From: a virus
DNA: 31,659 nt
IMG/VR virus record: IMGVR_UViG_3300025132_000169
Coordinates: 1-31,659 of that record
Reading direction: 5' to 3' (one strand)
The position numbers were made by a program, and so were the translations under genes. The notes under the pieces were generated by a model. That model was not told the DNA's origin. It ran no database searches and saw only the letters and a list, made by a program, of their open reading frames with translations. Positions 24,374-31,659 of this stretch are shown here, piece by piece. Numbering within the stretch: position 1 is the first letter of the stretch; each line of letters starts with the position of its first letter.

Positions 24374-24796
24374 ATGTCTGAACAATGGTTTATAAATAAT
24401 CAACACAAAAAAGAATGTTTTAAAACATTTGTGGATGAAATTTGTGAGAGCAATGATTGCGTAACATTTATATGCAAAACAGGTAAACCCAGATCACCCA
24501 AACAGCAAGCAGCACTTGAGGTTTATTTTAGAAATGCAGCAAATATGTTAAATGACGCTGGTTACTATCATCAATTAAATGCAGATTTTCTTAGAGATTC
24601 TATTGAAATACCCTGGACGCAAGAATCATTTAAAGAATTTTGGCGATCAATACAGAACACAATGTACGGTGTATCATCAACCACAGACATACAATCTGAC
24701 AAAGTATCTAAGGTCTATGATGCTATTAACTCAGCATTGAGTGAGCGTACAGGCATACACATACCGTTCCCATCAAAGCCAATGACAGATTTATGA
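24374..24796 (+). CDS. Conserved phage protein in the nin region, 140 aa
   Basis: It resembles a phage family with the pattern 'RSPKQQAALEVYFRNAANML', 'IEIPWTQESFKEFWRSIQNT', 'STTDIQSDKVSKVYDAI' and an ending H-I-P-F-P-S. Members are common near replication genes, but I know no proven function. Its position next to a NinG-like protein is that of lambda NinB, though the sequence does not match NinB. It ends in ATGA overlap with the next gene. Confidence 0.65.
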   Translation: MSEQWFINNQHKKECFKTFVDEICESNDCVTFICKTGKPRSPKQQAALEVYFRNAANMLNDAGYYHQLNADFLRDSIEIPWTQESFKEFWRSIQNTMYGVSSTTDIQSDKVSKVYDAINSALSERTGIHIPFPSKPMTDL

Positions 24797-25197
24797 GTCA
24801 AAAACTACGCAAGAAATGCCTGACTGCTATACAAAAACTAGCAAGGATATCTGCTGCTGATCAGCTTGGTATGGTGCAATGTGTATCATGCGACAAAAAA
24901 TTGCACTGGAAAGATGCAGATGGTGGACACTACATAGCCAAGGGTAGTTCATCATATTGGGCGTTAGAGATAGAAAACGTACACCCACAATGTAAAGGAT
25001 GTAATTGTTTTGGTATGAGTAAGGGCAGCGCAGAAGGACAGTACACATTATGGATGATAGATATGTACGGTGAAGACTTTGTTAGACAAATGCATCAAGA
25101 CAAACGAAAACTAAAAAAAATGTACAAACAAGATTATGAAGATATGCTCAAAGAATTTAATGAATTAATTAAACATCACGAAGAAAGATTATCCTGA
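24793..25197 (+). CDS. ninG: NinG/Rap-like recombination nuclease, 134 aa
   Basis: This is an HNH-type nuclease of the lambda NinG (Rap) group, which resolves branched recombination intermediates. The cysteine pair CVSC (about 32-35), the histidine of DGGHYIAKG (about residue 47), and NVHPQCKGCNCFGMSKG (about 62-80) give the zinc-supported HNH core; the helix ARISAADQLGMVQCVSC precedes it. It is shorter than lambda NinG (204). It is the last gene of the rightward replication operon. Confidence 0.8.
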   Translation: MSQKLRKKCLTAIQKLARISAADQLGMVQCVSCDKKLHWKDADGGHYIAKGSSSYWALEIENVHPQCKGCNCFGMSKGSAEGQYTLWMIDMYGEDFVRQMHQDKRKLKKMYKQDYEDMLKEFNELIKHHEERLS

Positions 25198-25250
25198 CCC
25201 CAAGTTGATAGGCTAAAAAAAGGGTGTAGAGTTGGGGACAAATTAAATAC

Positions 25251-25278
25251 TTGCATTAACTCAGACACTTGTTAGAAT
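25251..25278 (+). promoter_or_regulatory. Sigma70-like promoter upstream of a terminator
   Basis: A -35 TTGCAT (25251-25256) and -10 TAGAAT (25273-25278) are 16 bases apart, so transcription would start near 25285. A strong terminator follows only about 30 bases later, so the primary product would be an RNA of about 55 bases. Confidence 0.5.
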
Positions 25279-25314
25279 AAAAGTCCTTTTTATGATTGTA
25301 TGAAACCCCCTTTT

Positions 25315-25339
25315 AAGCCCCACATGGGGCTTTTTTTTT
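25315..25339 (+). terminator. Strong intrinsic terminator
   Basis: A perfect 7-base stem AAGCCCC (25315-25321) and GGGGCTT (25326-25332) with loop ACAT is followed by seven more T. It ends the replication operon and lies before the basic-protein cluster. It sits inside the frame that opens at 25300, which is one reason to reject that start. Confidence 0.9.
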
Positions 25340-25353
25340 GTTATACTCAAAAT

Positions 25354-25638
25354 ATGGAGAAGAAAAGTTTACTCAAACGTATCGGTGTATCTGGTTACAA
25401 CAAAGCAAAACGCACACCAAATCACCCTACAAAATCACACGTTGTTGTTGCAAAAGTTGGCGATAAAGTTAAAACTATACGTTTCGGACAGCAAGGAGCT
25501 AAAACTGCTGGCAAACCTAAATCTGGAGAGTCTCAAAGAATTAGAAATAAACGAGCAAGTTTTAAAGCAAGGCACAGAAAAAACATAGCACGCGGTAAAA
25601 TGTCTGCTGCGTGGTGGGCAAACAAAGTTAAATGGTAA
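25354..25638 (+). CDS. Small basic marine-phage protein, 94 aa
   Basis: The frame begins at ATG 25354; an upstream ATG at 25300 would place the terminator inside the gene. No SD precedes 25354, but TATACT at 25342-25347 could be a -10 that starts transcription on the A of the ATG, making it leaderless. The protein is very basic, with signature segments KRTPNHPTKSHVVVAK, IRFGQQGAKTAGKP and FKARHRKNIARGKMSAAWW, then KVKW. I recall close relatives in marine phages (DUF6321-like). Function unknown; a nucleic-acid-binding role is a guess from charge. Confidence 0.8.
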   Translation: MEKKSLLKRIGVSGYNKAKRTPNHPTKSHVVVAKVGDKVKTIRFGQQGAKTAGKPKSGESQRIRNKRASFKARHRKNIARGKMSAAWWANKVKW

Positions 25639-25648
25639 GGAGATAATT

Positions 25649-25717
25649 ATGCCGTATCACACAGGTTCAAAAAGCAAACCAAAACCAAAGCCAAAGAAAA
25701 GTAAGCCAAGGAAATAA
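25649..25717 (+). CDS. Tiny lysine/proline-rich protein, 22 aa
   Basis: ATG 25649 is preceded by AAGGAG at a good distance. The product reads MPYHTGSKSK, then a Lys/Pro alternating tail (KPKPKPKKSKPRK). It is too short for domain recognition, but very similar short Lys-rich peptides that begin MPYH/K occur beside the same genes in marine phages, which supports a real gene. Confidence 0.55.
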   Translation: MPYHTGSKSKPKPKPKKSKPRK

Positions 25718-25718
25718 C

Positions 25719-25892
25719 GTGGCAAAAGGTACAAAACATTACTTTGCTGACGGCAGAGAGTACACAGGAGGCACTCACAAGATGCCAAATGGTGAAACAC
25801 ATAGCGGTTCTATGCATACAAAGAACAGTAAAAAGTTGTTTCATTTCAAAAACTTATCAGAGAAAGCTAAGAAAAAAGCTAAAGGTGAATAA
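25719..25892 (+). CDS. Small basic protein, GTG start, 57 aa
   Basis: The start is GTG 25719, 1 base after the previous stop, with AAGGA upstream. The sequence KGTKHYFADGREYTGGTH, KMPNGETHSGSMH and LFHFKNLSEKAKKKAK is a characteristic pattern in marine phages: a G-G-T-H-K-M-P-N-G core and a lysine-rich helix. Histidines (7, 20, 28, 33, 42) could bind metal. Function unknown. Confidence 0.75.
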   Translation: MAKGTKHYFADGREYTGGTHKMPNGETHSGSMHTKNSKKLFHFKNLSEKAKKKAKGE

Positions 25893-25894
25893 CT

Positions 25895-26206
25895 ATGGAT
25901 AAATCAACCAAAACAAAATTATCCACCAGACAAAGAAAACGAGCACAAATAAGTCCCAAAGATCATATCACAGTTGCTTTTCAACAAATAAAAGGAACAG
26001 ATAAAAACTCTGTAAAACAAAACAAATTTGTATTTGCTCTATCACAATTAAAAAAGGCAAAAAGCAAAGAAGAGTTACGCAATTTAAAAACTTTAATTGA
26101 TAAAAAATCAGCGTCTTTAAATAATGAAGAAAAGAAAATAACTGCTGAATTTAAAACTCTAGCTGGTAGTATTTACAATGACACCTTAAAAAAAGTAGGT
26201 GATTGA
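25895..26206 (+). CDS. Basic helical protein, 103 aa
   Basis: ATG 25895 follows 2 bases after the previous stop, with AAGGTG upstream. The N-terminus KTKLSTRQRKRAQISPKDHI resembles the next gene's start (KKKLTARQRKLA), suggesting common ancestry. The rest is predicted helical, Lys-rich (KKAKSKEELRNLKTLIDKK). No enzyme motif. It may bind nucleic acid. Confidence 0.65.
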   Translation: MDKSTKTKLSTRQRKRAQISPKDHITVAFQQIKGTDKNSVKQNKFVFALSQLKKAKSKEELRNLKTLIDKKSASLNNEEKKITAEFKTLAGSIYNDTLKKVGD

Positions 26207-26207
26207 T

Positions 26208-26330
26208 ATGGACATGAATAGAAAGAAAAAACTAACTGCACGACAAAGAAAACTTGCAGCTATGTATGGTGACAAAAATAAAATTACTCGCGGTGATGTT
26301 ATTGCTGCTGCTAAGAAAGGTAAAAAATGA
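26208..26330 (+). CDS. Tiny basic protein, 40 aa
   Basis: ATG 26208 is preceded by AGGTGA. The product MDMNRKKKLTARQRKLAAM, followed by a short DKNKITRGDVIAAAKKG helix, is of a pattern I recall from other marine phages. MNRKK at 26214 is an alternative start. Its stop overlaps the next ATG. Function unknown. Confidence 0.65.
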   Translation: MDMNRKKKLTARQRKLAAMYGDKNKITRGDVIAAAKKGKK

Positions 26331-26497
26331 CATCACGAGTCAATGAAGCTGGTAACTATACCAAACCTAGAATGAGAAAAAGTTTATTTGAAGCTATCAA
26401 ACGTGGTGGTAAAGGTGGTAATCCTGGGCAATGGTCAGGCAGAAAAGCACAGATGTTAGCAAAACAATACAAAGCTAGAGGTGGCGGCTACAGGTAA
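26327..26497 (+). CDS. Small basic protein, 56 aa
   Basis: ATG 26327 overlaps the upstream TGA; the stop overlaps the next ATG (TAATG). The sequence MTSRVNEAGNYTKPRMRKSL, FEAIKRGGKGGNPGQWSGRK and QMLAKQYKARGGGYR is a distinctive and highly conserved-looking pattern known in marine phages. Net charge is strongly positive and aromatic/glycine turns are frequent. Function unknown. Confidence 0.75.
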   Translation: MTSRVNEAGNYTKPRMRKSLFEAIKRGGKGGNPGQWSGRKAQMLAKQYKARGGGYR

Positions 26498-26748
26498 TGG
26501 CACTCAGGAAGCCACAGAAATCGCTCTTAGACTGGGGTAAACAAGATTGGGGTACTAAGTCAGGTAAACCATCTACAGTCGGCCCTAAGGCCACAGGAGA
26601 GCGTTATTTGCCACGTAAGGCTAGACAGGCATTATCTTCTCAAGAATATGCAGCAACCAGTAGAAAGAAAAAGAAAGACACTCAATCTGGTAAGCAAGTA
26701 TCAAGACAACCTAAACGTATAGCAAAGAAAACATCTAAATATCGTTAG
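26497..26748 (+). CDS. Small basic protein, 83 aa
   Basis: Translationally coupled to the previous gene. The pattern LLDWGKQDWGTKSGKPST, GPKATGERYLPRKARQALSS and QEYAATSRKKKKDTQSGKQV is a widespread short family (DUF5872-like), found in phages and giant viruses. The C-terminus is very basic (PKRIAKKTSKYR). Its stop codon overlaps the endolysin stop on the other strand; there is no terminator between them. Confidence 0.75.
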   Translation: MALRKPQKSLLDWGKQDWGTKSGKPSTVGPKATGERYLPRKARQALSSQEYAATSRKKKKDTQSGKQVSRQPKRIAKKTSKYR

Positions 26749-27086
26749 TAAGACCACATAACAGATTCTGTATTTCTGTTATCAACGTGTATAAAAGTTT
26801 TAGCTATACCTATACCATTAAATCCCATCGCTACAGCGTTCTTTACAATCAAGTATCTTTCCATACCATTGTTCACTTTAATATCAGATGCTATGCCTTG
26901 TGCATGAGTACCAGGCTTTGCTTTCTTTGATTCAATACTATGTGATGGGCTTCTGTATCCACTTGTAATTATAAATGGAAAGCCACAAGCATCACGTAAA
27001 TCGTCTAACTTATATAGAAAGTTTGGACACATTTCATTATCGCCTGTTTCTTGGCAATCAAAATCTGATAGCTTAAAGTATTTCAC
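26745..27086 (-). CDS. M15-type peptidase endolysin, 113 aa
   Basis: A D-Ala-D-Ala carboxypeptidase-like (Peptidase M15) fold that cuts peptidoglycan cross-links at lysis. Zinc ligands are visible: His61 and Asp68 in THAQGIASDIKV (HxxGxxxD), and His100 in FIHVDNRN. SGYRSPSHS (42-50) is the typical substrate-binding turn. There is no signal peptide, so export depends on the holin-like protein. Small for an endolysin but complete. It overlaps the upstream gene by 4 bases (ATGA). Confidence 0.88.
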   Translation of the reverse strand: MKYFKLSDFDCQETGDNEMCPNFLYKLDDLRDACGFPFIITSGYRSPSHSIESKKAKPGTHAQGIASDIKVNNGMERYLIVKNAVAMGFNGIGIAKTFIHVDNRNTESVMWSY

Positions 27087-27277
27087 TTTGTAGGTTTTTT
27101 TGATTTGGGTGCAACTTTCTTTGGTGCAGCTTTTTTTTGACGTACTGTTTTATATGCTTCATTTTTATTTGGTGTTGATTTGTCATCACCTACAAACTGT
27201 CCCTTTTCATCTCTGTTACGTACTGTAACGTCTTCTGAATTAGTAAAAAAGTTTACAACACTTCTAAATAAACCCAT
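27083..27277 (-). CDS. Small basic protein upstream of endolysin, 64 aa
   Basis: A short amphipathic/hydrophobic start (MGLFRSVVNFF) precedes a polar region (VTVRNRDEKGQFVGDDKST) and a Lys/Pro/Ala-rich tail (KKAAPKKVAPKSKKPTK). The tail is reminiscent of histone H1-like and cell-wall-binding tails, but no family is recognised. It is coupled to the endolysin and the small membrane protein. Confidence 0.6.
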   Translation of the reverse strand: MGLFRSVVNFFTNSEDVTVRNRDEKGQFVGDDKSTPNKNEAYKTVRQKKAAPKKVAPKSKKPTK

Positions 27278-29122: not shown

Positions 29123-31659
29123 TTATTCTCCTTCTAAGGCTGTTATTCGAGCGGTTAATGATTCGATTAATGCTTGTTGCTCTTGAATCGCTTTGGTTAA
29201 AATTGGTATTAATTTTTCATACTGCATACCATACTGCTTGCCATCTTCTGACATGGTAACAGCAAGATTAGTTTTGTTTGCTTTGTCATAACCTGCGGCA
29301 ATCTCAAGTGCTTCAACATCTTGTGCTTTAAATCCTATATCTAACCAATCTTCTTTGTGAGTGCCATCAGGTGTATTATCACCATAGTTAGAACGCTTAT
29401 CCCACTTGTAGGTGTAAGGCTTAAGTTGATTGACAAAATCTAATCCAACATCTAAGTCTGTGAAGTCTGTTTTATCTCGTTCATCCGATGCAACTGTCAA
29501 TGCGACTTGTATATGAGCATTGGTAACATTTTCATCGCCAAGCACAATTTGATTAGCACCTGTGGATATTTCTCCTCCTGGACTACCAGAACGACCTGCA
29601 TCTTCGCCTAAGAATAGATTATTTGTACCACTAGTGACATTAAGACCTGCCGCCCTACCAACAGCAGTATTTCCTGACCCAGTGCAAGCAGTTAAAGCTT
29701 CTTGACCTAAAGCAACATTATGATCTCCACAGTTTGCACTTAATGCCGCATAACCAACCGCTACATTTTCTACACCGTCATCAGTAGCATCACCACAAAG
29801 TCCACCGATCAATGTATTACGGATACCAGTGGTTATATCATTACCTGCCTGATGACCAATAGCGACGTTAAACATATCACTCGCTGATGCAGGGTTTTGT
29901 AAAATTAAAGCGCCTTGACCTATGGCAACAGATTTTGATCCAACTGTATTTGATCCTAATGCACCAAGTCCAATAGCAATATTAAAGTCAGCATCTGTAA
30001 TTGCGTCTCCTGCTAAACCTCCTATTAATACATTTTGTATGCCCGTTGTGAGATCATTGCCTGCTTCATGGCCGACTGCTACGTTATAAGTTGACGTTGT
30101 TGAAGTAACATTAAAGTTTTCTAAAGTTCCTCTTCCAATAGCTACGTTGTCACTTCCACTGGTGTTAGTTGATAAAGAACTATAACCAATCGCTACGTTT
30201 GAACCACAATCCGTAAGAGCATCTCCTGCTAATCCTCCAATAAGTGTGTTCCTAACGCCTGATGTAATAGCTAGACCTGCTTGATGCCCTATTGCTACAT
30301 TGTAAACATCTGTCGCACCTGTAAAGTTTTGACTTACTAGTGCTTGAGTACCAATAGCAATAGACTTAGAGCCTGTTGTGTCAGAAGATAATGCTGAGTA
30401 TCCAATAGCTACGTTATAATCAGCATCCGTTAAAGCATCTCCTGCAGTTGCGCCAATAAGAGTGTTTTGCAAACCTGTGGTTACTGCTTTTCCTGCGGAA
30501 TGACCAAGAGCAGTATTATATCCATTTGCACCTGAACCTAAAGTATGTGTGGCAAGTGCGTCTGCTCCTACTGCTGTATTTTTATCTGAAACTGTATTTG
30601 TTGCGAGTGACCCATGACCAACTGCTACGTTTTGTCCTCCGATTGTTATAGCACCTGCGGCATTATATCCTACTGCTACGTTGTTATTGGCTCCTTGCAT
30701 TGCATCTCCTGCAAGGCCACCTATAAGGGTGTTTTGTGTGCCTGTGGTTACTGATGCACCTGCGTTAAAGCCTACTGCTGTGTTATGAGAATCAGTAGAA
30801 GAAGTAAAATTTTGAACATTTAAAGCACTGTGACCTATAGCTACTGATTTATTTCCTTTCGTATCTGCACCTAAAGCTCCTACTCCTAAAACCACATTGT
30901 AGTCAGCATCTGTAAGCGCATCTCCTGCTAAGCCTCCGATGAGAACATTTTGTATGCCTGTGGTTACTGCCGCACCTGCGTTATCACCAATTGCAACATT
31001 GTGAACATCTGTAGCTGAAGTAAAGTTTTGAGCTTCAAGAGCCGAATGACCAATAGCAATTGATTTACTACCTAACGTGTCAGCGGTTAAGGAATGAGAA
31101 CCTATTGCTACATTGAAATCTGCATCTGTTAAAGCATCACCTGCTAACGCACCTACAAGAGTGTTGCGGATACCTGTGGTAATTGCGGCTCCTGCCGAAG
31201 CTCCGACAGCAACATTGTATGCATCTGTGCCAGAACTAAAGTTTTGATTAAGTAAAGCGTTTCTACCTATAGCGATACTCTGTTGTCCTTGAGTATCACC
31301 GCCTAATGCACCTTGACCAATAGCTACGTTATTATAACCAGTAGTTAAAGCGTCACCTGCTAAACCGCCAACAAGTGTGTTCCTAACGCCTGTGGTCATT
31401 ACATTACCTGATGCATAACCTACAGCAGTATTATATGCATCAACTCCTGCATTTAAACTGTCTAATGAAGCATAGCCAATTGCTACGTTGTAGCCGTTAG
31501 CATCTTCAGATTGTAAAGCACCAAAACCTACGGCTACATTCCTATCTCCAGTAGTAATCGCAGTACCTGCATTATCTCCTATTAAAGTGTTGTATTGTGC
31601 GCCAGAAACAATGCTGTTACCTGCGGTTGCACCAAAGCGTACGTTAGAGGTTCCTGCTG
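29123..31659 (-). CDS. Tail fibre protein, C-terminal part with S74 chaperone (partial)
   Basis: The frame is open through the right edge: from the window end the reading goes AGTSNVRFGATAGNSIVSGA without a stop, so ATG 31399 is internal, not the start. About 720 residues are built of NVAIG/NTLIG-type repeats, like the beta-roll head of trimeric autotransporters (YadA-like). The last 121 residues form a Peptidase_S74 intramolecular chaperone (SDERDK start; serine for self-cleavage; EKLIPILTKAIQEQQALIESL coiled coil at the end), which drives trimerisation and is then cut off. With the left-edge fragment (1-1754) it probably forms one fibre of more than 1,400 residues. Confidence 0.88.
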   Translation of the reverse strand, partial: AGTSNVRFGATAGNSIVSGAQYNTLIGDNAGTAITTGDRNVAVGFGALQSEDANGYNVAIGYASLDSLNAGVDAYNTAVGYASGNVMTTGVRNTLVGGLAGDALTTGYNNVAIGQGALGGDTQGQQSIAIGRNALLNQNFSSGTDAYNVAVGASAGAAITTGIRNTLVGALAGDALTDADFNVAIGSHSLTADTLGSKSIAIGHSALEAQNFTSATDVHNVAIGDNAGAAVTTGIQNVLIGGLAGDALTDADYNVVLGVGALGADTKGNKSVAIGHSALNVQNFTSSTDSHNTAVGFNAGASVTTGTQNTLIGGLAGDAMQGANNNVAVGYNAAGAITIGGQNVAVGHGSLATNTVSDKNTAVGADALATHTLGSGANGYNTALGHSAGKAVTTGLQNTLIGATAGDALTDADYNVAIGYSALSSDTTGSKSIAIGTQALVSQNFTGATDVYNVAIGHQAGLAITSGVRNTLIGGLAGDALTDCGSNVAIGYSSLSTNTSGSDNVAIGRGTLENFNVTSTTSTYNVAVGHEAGNDLTTGIQNVLIGGLAGDAITDADFNIAIGLGALGSNTVGSKSVAIGQGALILQNPASASDMFNVAIGHQAGNDITTGIRNTLIGGLCGDATDDGVENVAVGYAALSANCGDHNVALGQEALTACTGSGNTAVGRAAGLNVTSGTNNLFLGEDAGRSGSPGGEISTGANQIVLGDENVTNAHIQVALTVASDERDKTDFTDLDVGLDFVNQLKPYTYKWDKRSNYGDNTPDGTHKEDWLDIGFKAQDVEALEIAAGYDKANKTNLAVTMSEDGKQYGMQYEKLIPILTKAIQEQQALIESLTARITALEGE
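29791..31380. repeat. 216-base tandem repeats in the fibre gene
   Basis: Eight copies of the same element (the AGDAL/CACCTGCTA word) start at 29791, 30007, 30223, 30439, 30706, 30922, 31138 and 31354. Spacing is exactly 216 bases except one interval of 267 (216+51). Each unit is 72 residues of NxAIG-type coils; copies are diverged but clearly related. Confidence 0.9.

Follow-up and report, generated by a model that had tools for sequence, protein, structure and literature searches.

The locus described here raises the question of whether seven very small genes, encoded in a single row by a virus, represent one concerted system, as the first-pass annotation had proposed, and, if so, what their products would do. 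The window analyzed (i.e., the whole stretch of 31,659 nt) is a virus contig of 31.7 kb that does not close as a circle. Seven ORFs of 94, 22, 57, 103, 40, 56, and 83 aa (P1 to P7, hereafter the cassette) fill positions 25354–26748 on the + strand, exactly as first annotated; they are separated by gaps of 10, 1, 2, and 1 bp, followed by overlaps of 4 and 1 bp:

25354–25638, + strand: P1, 94 aa, phrog_7595; predicted beta hairpin plus helices
25649–25717, + strand: P2, 22 aa, an MPYHxGxKxK... peptide; similar peptides adjoin cassettes in loci L068, L072, and L090
25719–25892, + strand: P3, 57 aa, GTG start; HKMPNGxxHSGxxHTKxSxxL family
25895–26206, + strand: P4, 103 aa; apparent accessory insertion with a P5-like N-terminus
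26208–26330, + strand: P5, 40 aa; LTxxQRKLAA...KIT family
26327–26497, + strand: P6, 56 aa, phrog_17747; resembles a divergent N half of DUF5872
26497–26748, + strand: P7, 83 aa, phrog_14910; resembles a divergent C half of DUF5872; four predicted helices

The net charge per residue of P1 to P7 (0.14–0.41) was far above the genome median of 0.0 (Mann-Whitney p = 2e-5) and higher than that of the other small genes of this genome (p = 1e-4). The description of all seven proteins as strongly basic thus holds for the set on average; P3 and P4, with 0.14 per residue, are moderately basic only. P4 and P5 have the motif KL(S/T)xRQRK in common, which accounts for the K-L-(S/T)-x-R-Q-R-K start pointed out in two of the proteins. 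Consistent with the reported absence of enzyme motifs, a Pfam search of all seven proteins yielded no family above its cut-off and no enzyme family.

P1 (residues 4–94, E = 6e-39), P6 (residues 3–56, E = 1.5e-30), and P7 (residues 1–83, E = 6e-34) match phrog_7595, phrog_17747, and phrog_14910, respectively, to the ends of the profiles, and are thus full-length members of these families, which have no assigned function; the linkage, fusions, and head context described below are absent from PHROG. Phage records containing P1, P6, and P7 numbered 44, 16, and 17, respectively, with P1 present in phages of Roseobacter, Synechococcus, Prochlorococcus, Celeribacter, and Vibrio, in P22-like environmental phages, and in others. 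At least 594 relatives of P1 were found in one scan, and cassette families are also present in hundreds of viral contigs. The first-pass statement that at least five of the proteins belong to marine-phage families proved true of P1, P3, P5, P6, and P7.

Profile searches of 259 related loci showed that co-occurring family pairs were encoded on one strand in 100% of cases. P6 was located 5′ of P7 in all 138 loci with both (median gap of 3 bp), and single-ORF fusions were found for P6-P7 in 27 loci and for P7-P1 in three. While the commonest orders were P1-P6-P7, P6-P7-P1, P1-P3, P1-P3-P5-P6-P7, and P6-P3-P7-P1, loci fetched by P7 alone contained P6 in 73 of 80 and P1 in 43 of 80 cases, and loci fetched by P3 alone contained P1 in 61 of 77. 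P2-like MPYHKGKKKK peptides adjoin cassettes of distant phages. The core of the cassette is P1, P6, and P7, with P3, P5, and P2 as frequent partners and P4 as an accessory gene. Rather than being rarely found together, the families commonly occur side by side in these loci, and the proposal of a concerted system is well supported by this co-occurrence, by the single strand, the coupled starts, and the P6-P7 and P7-P1 fusions, as well as by purifying selection. These families were known before as unknowns; the conserved cassette appears to be undescribed in the literature searched, and internal head proteins of small size are themselves a known kind.

All seven ORFs are real genes under purifying selection. 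Mean dN/dS among close relatives was 0.20 for P1, 0.11 for P3, 0.12 for P5, 0.10 for P6, and 0.09 for P7; the value for P4 (0.08) comes from three sequences only. Even the 22 codons of P2 were constrained (dN = 0.033 versus dS = 0.58 in close relatives), and the lack of selection that would have spoken against the set was seen for none of its members. P4 was rejected as a core member, since it was found in four loci only and represents a 313-nt insertion separating P3 and P5; it looks like a recent accessory insertion. The idea of a shared seven-member set accordingly stands for P1, P3, P5, P6, P7, and the recurring P2-like peptides, and fails for P4.

When the neighbors of 240 cassette loci were clustered, the commonest families were TerL (75 loci), portal (65 loci), a virion structural protein, scaffold, three kinds of major head protein, and TerS. 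A head or packaging gene was located within 4 kb of the cassette in 171 of 219 loci, on the same strand every time, as compared to 18 of 94 control loci (same strand in two), although this contrast is inflated because the head-gene HMMs came from cassette neighborhoods; control loci were anchored on a DNA methyltransferase or on a replication-region protein resembling a single-strand annealing protein. TerL alone was found within 4 kb in 78 of 219 cassette loci versus 18 of 94 controls. Individual cases include a P22-like phage with a cassette gene between the tail accessory factor and stabilization protein genes, KBS-S-2A, with a cassette gene between minor head protein and coat protein genes, and MEP402, with a cassette gene directly 5′ of TerL. 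The nearby TerL, TerS, portal, and scaffold genes would also be expected if the cassette encoded assembly factors that help terminase, portal, or scaffold engage DNA and then leave, such that they are absent from the finished virion; however, cassette order and position relative to TerL are highly variable, which argues against such a role.

Outside the cassette, the P1 domain is found fused to head proteins and to proteins of the injected type:

L260:3752–4759, Vibrio phage qdvp001 gp133: P1 domain N-terminal to Peptidase_S78_2, an XkdF-type head-maturation protease
L287:101–3268, MAG contig: 1056-aa ORF combining P1, at the N-terminus, with SLT and ART-PolyVal

The qdvp001 gene sits between portal and head decoration genes, and its homologue in L265 retains the protease without the P1 domain. 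N-terminal parts of head-maturation proteases are typically removed on maturation, and this fusion would fit assembly factors as well. In the 1056-aa ORF, which may be a true fusion or the product of a lost stop codon, ART-PolyVal scored 31.0 bits, marginally below its cut-off of 31.2. Packaging and injection have been proposed for phage polyvalent proteins, which are head-linked (PMC5512222), and the single occurrence of P1 in an SLT/ART-type protein of this kind speaks against factors that leave before the virion is complete; we consider the assembly-factor explanation somewhat unlikely. Polyvalent proteins need at least two disparate domains, whereas the window proteins, as single small domains without Pfam enzymes, do not qualify as such, the only multidomain homologue being that of L287. 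In addition, the P1 domain forms the C-terminal end of a cytidylyltransferase protein of Methylophilales phage Melnitz. A cyanophage core cytidylyltransferase (T4-GC190) has been detected in purified S-SM1 virions (PMC3037559); the cyanophage homologues of this virion-type enzyme were without P1, with matches ending at residue 274 of 650. Fusions of P1 to the protease and to SLT/ART are few: approximately one vibriophage group has the former, and one MAG contig the latter. Linkage and fusion of the cassette families to head-assembly genes are features of relatives, and not of the cassette's position in the window.

AlphaFold predicted, with fair confidence, a beta hairpin with helices for P1 (pLDDT of 83) and four helices for P7 (pLDDT of 87). 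Comparison of both proteins with PDB sequences and, by fold searches, with solved structures gave no convincing match, and a BFVD search returned only P1's own relatives; because the predicted folds match no solved structure, DNA binding is without fold-level support. A weak match of P1 to phrog_220 (“minor head protein and DNA pilot”; E = 6e-4) is a lead only. Ribosomal protein uL24 was rejected as an identity for P1, as the match to plastid uL24 was not significant (E = 0.35–0.79).

P6 and P7 together look like a split, divergent DUF5872, judging from the alignments. A P6-P7 fusion homologue aligned to positions 5–110 of the 116 positions of DUF5872 (PF19197), with both halves in order, at 24.7 bits (gathering cut-off of 27.5), while P6 alone and P7 alone from the window did not match DUF5872 in Pfam. 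In profile-profile comparison, P6 matched the N half with 77% probability and P7 the C half weakly (25%), as compared to 0.15% for a negative control. The two putative halves are separate genes in the window. Two small families near P1 (cl28 and cl27), which are often coupled, match the N and C halves of DUF5872, respectively, and occur exclusively in loci lacking P6 and P7, as if the two pairs replaced each other; the cl27-type C half has cysteines, whereas P7 is without them. DUF5872 is named in the genome paper of an algal giant virus (PMC12085832), and literature searches on DUF5872, DUF6321, DUF6496, and DUF5824 yielded one genome-paper mention and no function.

Further basic families found near cassettes include DUF6321 (in 518 phage records), DUF6496, and, as judged by eye, a DUF5824-like family. 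T4-like cyanophages encode proteins in which several such modules are combined:

L262:2957–4240: multi-module protein with DUF5872-type and DUF6321 modules
L263:2903–4234: multi-module protein with DUF5872-type and DUF6321 modules

The DUF5872-like parts of these proteins (both halves) were called by eye and by shared PHROG matches. The multi-module genes adjoin terS/terL, and one product is annotated as “structural protein”. Syn9 gp114 and S-B43 QDH50481 (T4-like cyanophage, DUF6321) carry small basic modules of a like kind beside terS/terL, but within one protein of 427–443 aa rather than in a row of genes as observed here; P1, P3, and P5 were not found in the T4-like cyanophage multi-module proteins.

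Among the functions that the first-pass annotation had offered, internal-head proteins or phage DNA compaction fits best because in other phages the families lie beside head-assembly proteins and form fusions with them, while nucleoid displacement and ribosome binding found no direct support. Strong positive charge and the absence of an enzyme family are also in favor of a place in the head interior. We give about even odds (a probability of approximately 0.5) to the reading that the cassette encodes small proteins that bind DNA inside the head, are incorporated as the virion is assembled, and possibly exit together with the genome. The proteins would be made at the time of virion assembly and would enter the prohead alongside DNA or attached to it, in some phages via fusion to the head-maturation protease; they would help neutralize or condense the packaged genome, and, if ejected along with it, they may act on the DNA of host or phage right after entry. 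T4 internal head proteins, which are head-linked and thought to be packaged and injected, offer a parallel in kind. Conservation, linkage, fusions, and head context in other phages are observed directly, and virion presence, DNA binding, ejection, and late expression in this phage are inferred. Counting against late expression here, the cassette lies opposite the structural genes, after replication/recombination genes, and against the endolysin.

An extended form of this reading, which we regard as unlikely, is that many unrelated marine phages share a modular “virion chromatin” kit of exchangeable basic proteins that condense the genome and deliver it in a ready-to-act state; its parts would be related to algal giant virus domains, with equivalents being swapped (P6/P7 for other DUF5872 halves). 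The cassette families are very common marine-phage proteins without assigned function, a sizeable portion of viral dark matter, and a head-tied, exchangeable module would provide a concrete, testable function for them. This also raises the question of whether tailed phages rely on protamine-like proteins, of which classical coliphages make hardly any use.

In the window, the structural genes (portal/head-tail connector, major head protein, tail, and internal virion protein) are located on the strand opposite the cassette, which is preceded by a ninG-like gene (24793–25197, phrog_171) and abuts, on its 3′ side, an M15 endolysin gene on the opposite strand; this phage, with a leader of its own ahead of the cassette, is an exception. 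No DNA-level matches to the window's first 25 kb were found in the phage collection. The location on the + strand after the early/recombination operon, together with the strong basic charge and the weak uL24-like match of P1, would be consistent with host-takeover proteins that displace the nucleoid or bind RNA or ribosomes in the infected cell. This explanation is quite improbable, however, as in other phages the families lie within late head modules, on the strand of the late genes, the fusion partners are virion-assembly proteins, and the uL24 match does not reach significance. The adjacent M15 endolysin, along with lysis genes nearby in CRP-1, CRP-345, HTVC033P, and HMO-2011, may suggest cationic peptides acting on the envelope at lysis; but the P22-like, S-CBS2, KBS-S-2A, and MEP402 cases have no annotated adjacent lysis gene, no membrane segment was evident by eye, and P1 and P7 are predicted to be folded domains, which makes lysis accessories highly improbable.

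The leader (25198–25353) is conserved in relatives, where promoter-like sequence is followed by a hairpin and then by TGTTATAAT or TGTTATACT. It includes three features:

25253–25280, + strand: weak promoter-like site (TTGCAT, ~16 nt, TAGAAT), read in the sequence; low confidence
25315–25340, + strand: hairpin terminator AAGCCCCACATGGGGCTT plus T run, in the ninG–P1 interval; conserved in close relatives
25338–25347, + strand: TGTTATACT, extended −10-like motif, identified by eye; abuts the T run, 6 nt before the P1 start codon

The terminator annotated ahead of the operon was recovered as a strong hairpin ending at 25332, 21 bp 5′ of P1, and is the sole terminator-like hairpin of the region. 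Confidence in the promoter-like site is low because a consensus promoter scan of the region showed no excess over shuffled sequences; relatives carry better promoter-like sites at the matching position. At the extended −10-like site, the relatives listed have TGTTATAAT or TGTTATACT a few bases 5′ of the P1 start. Judging from these motifs, the leader may work by antitermination at the hairpin, or P1 may be transcribed from an extended −10 promoter as a leaderless mRNA.

Two further genes of the window, both on the − strand, were noted. A small basic gene with a KKAAPKKVAPKSKK tail (27083–27277; cluster 24) is located beside the endolysin and is kept in relatives. The other (29123–31657) encodes a very repetitive fiber-like protein with VAIG/TLIGGLAGDAL repeats, the C-terminus of which resembles an intramolecular chaperone.
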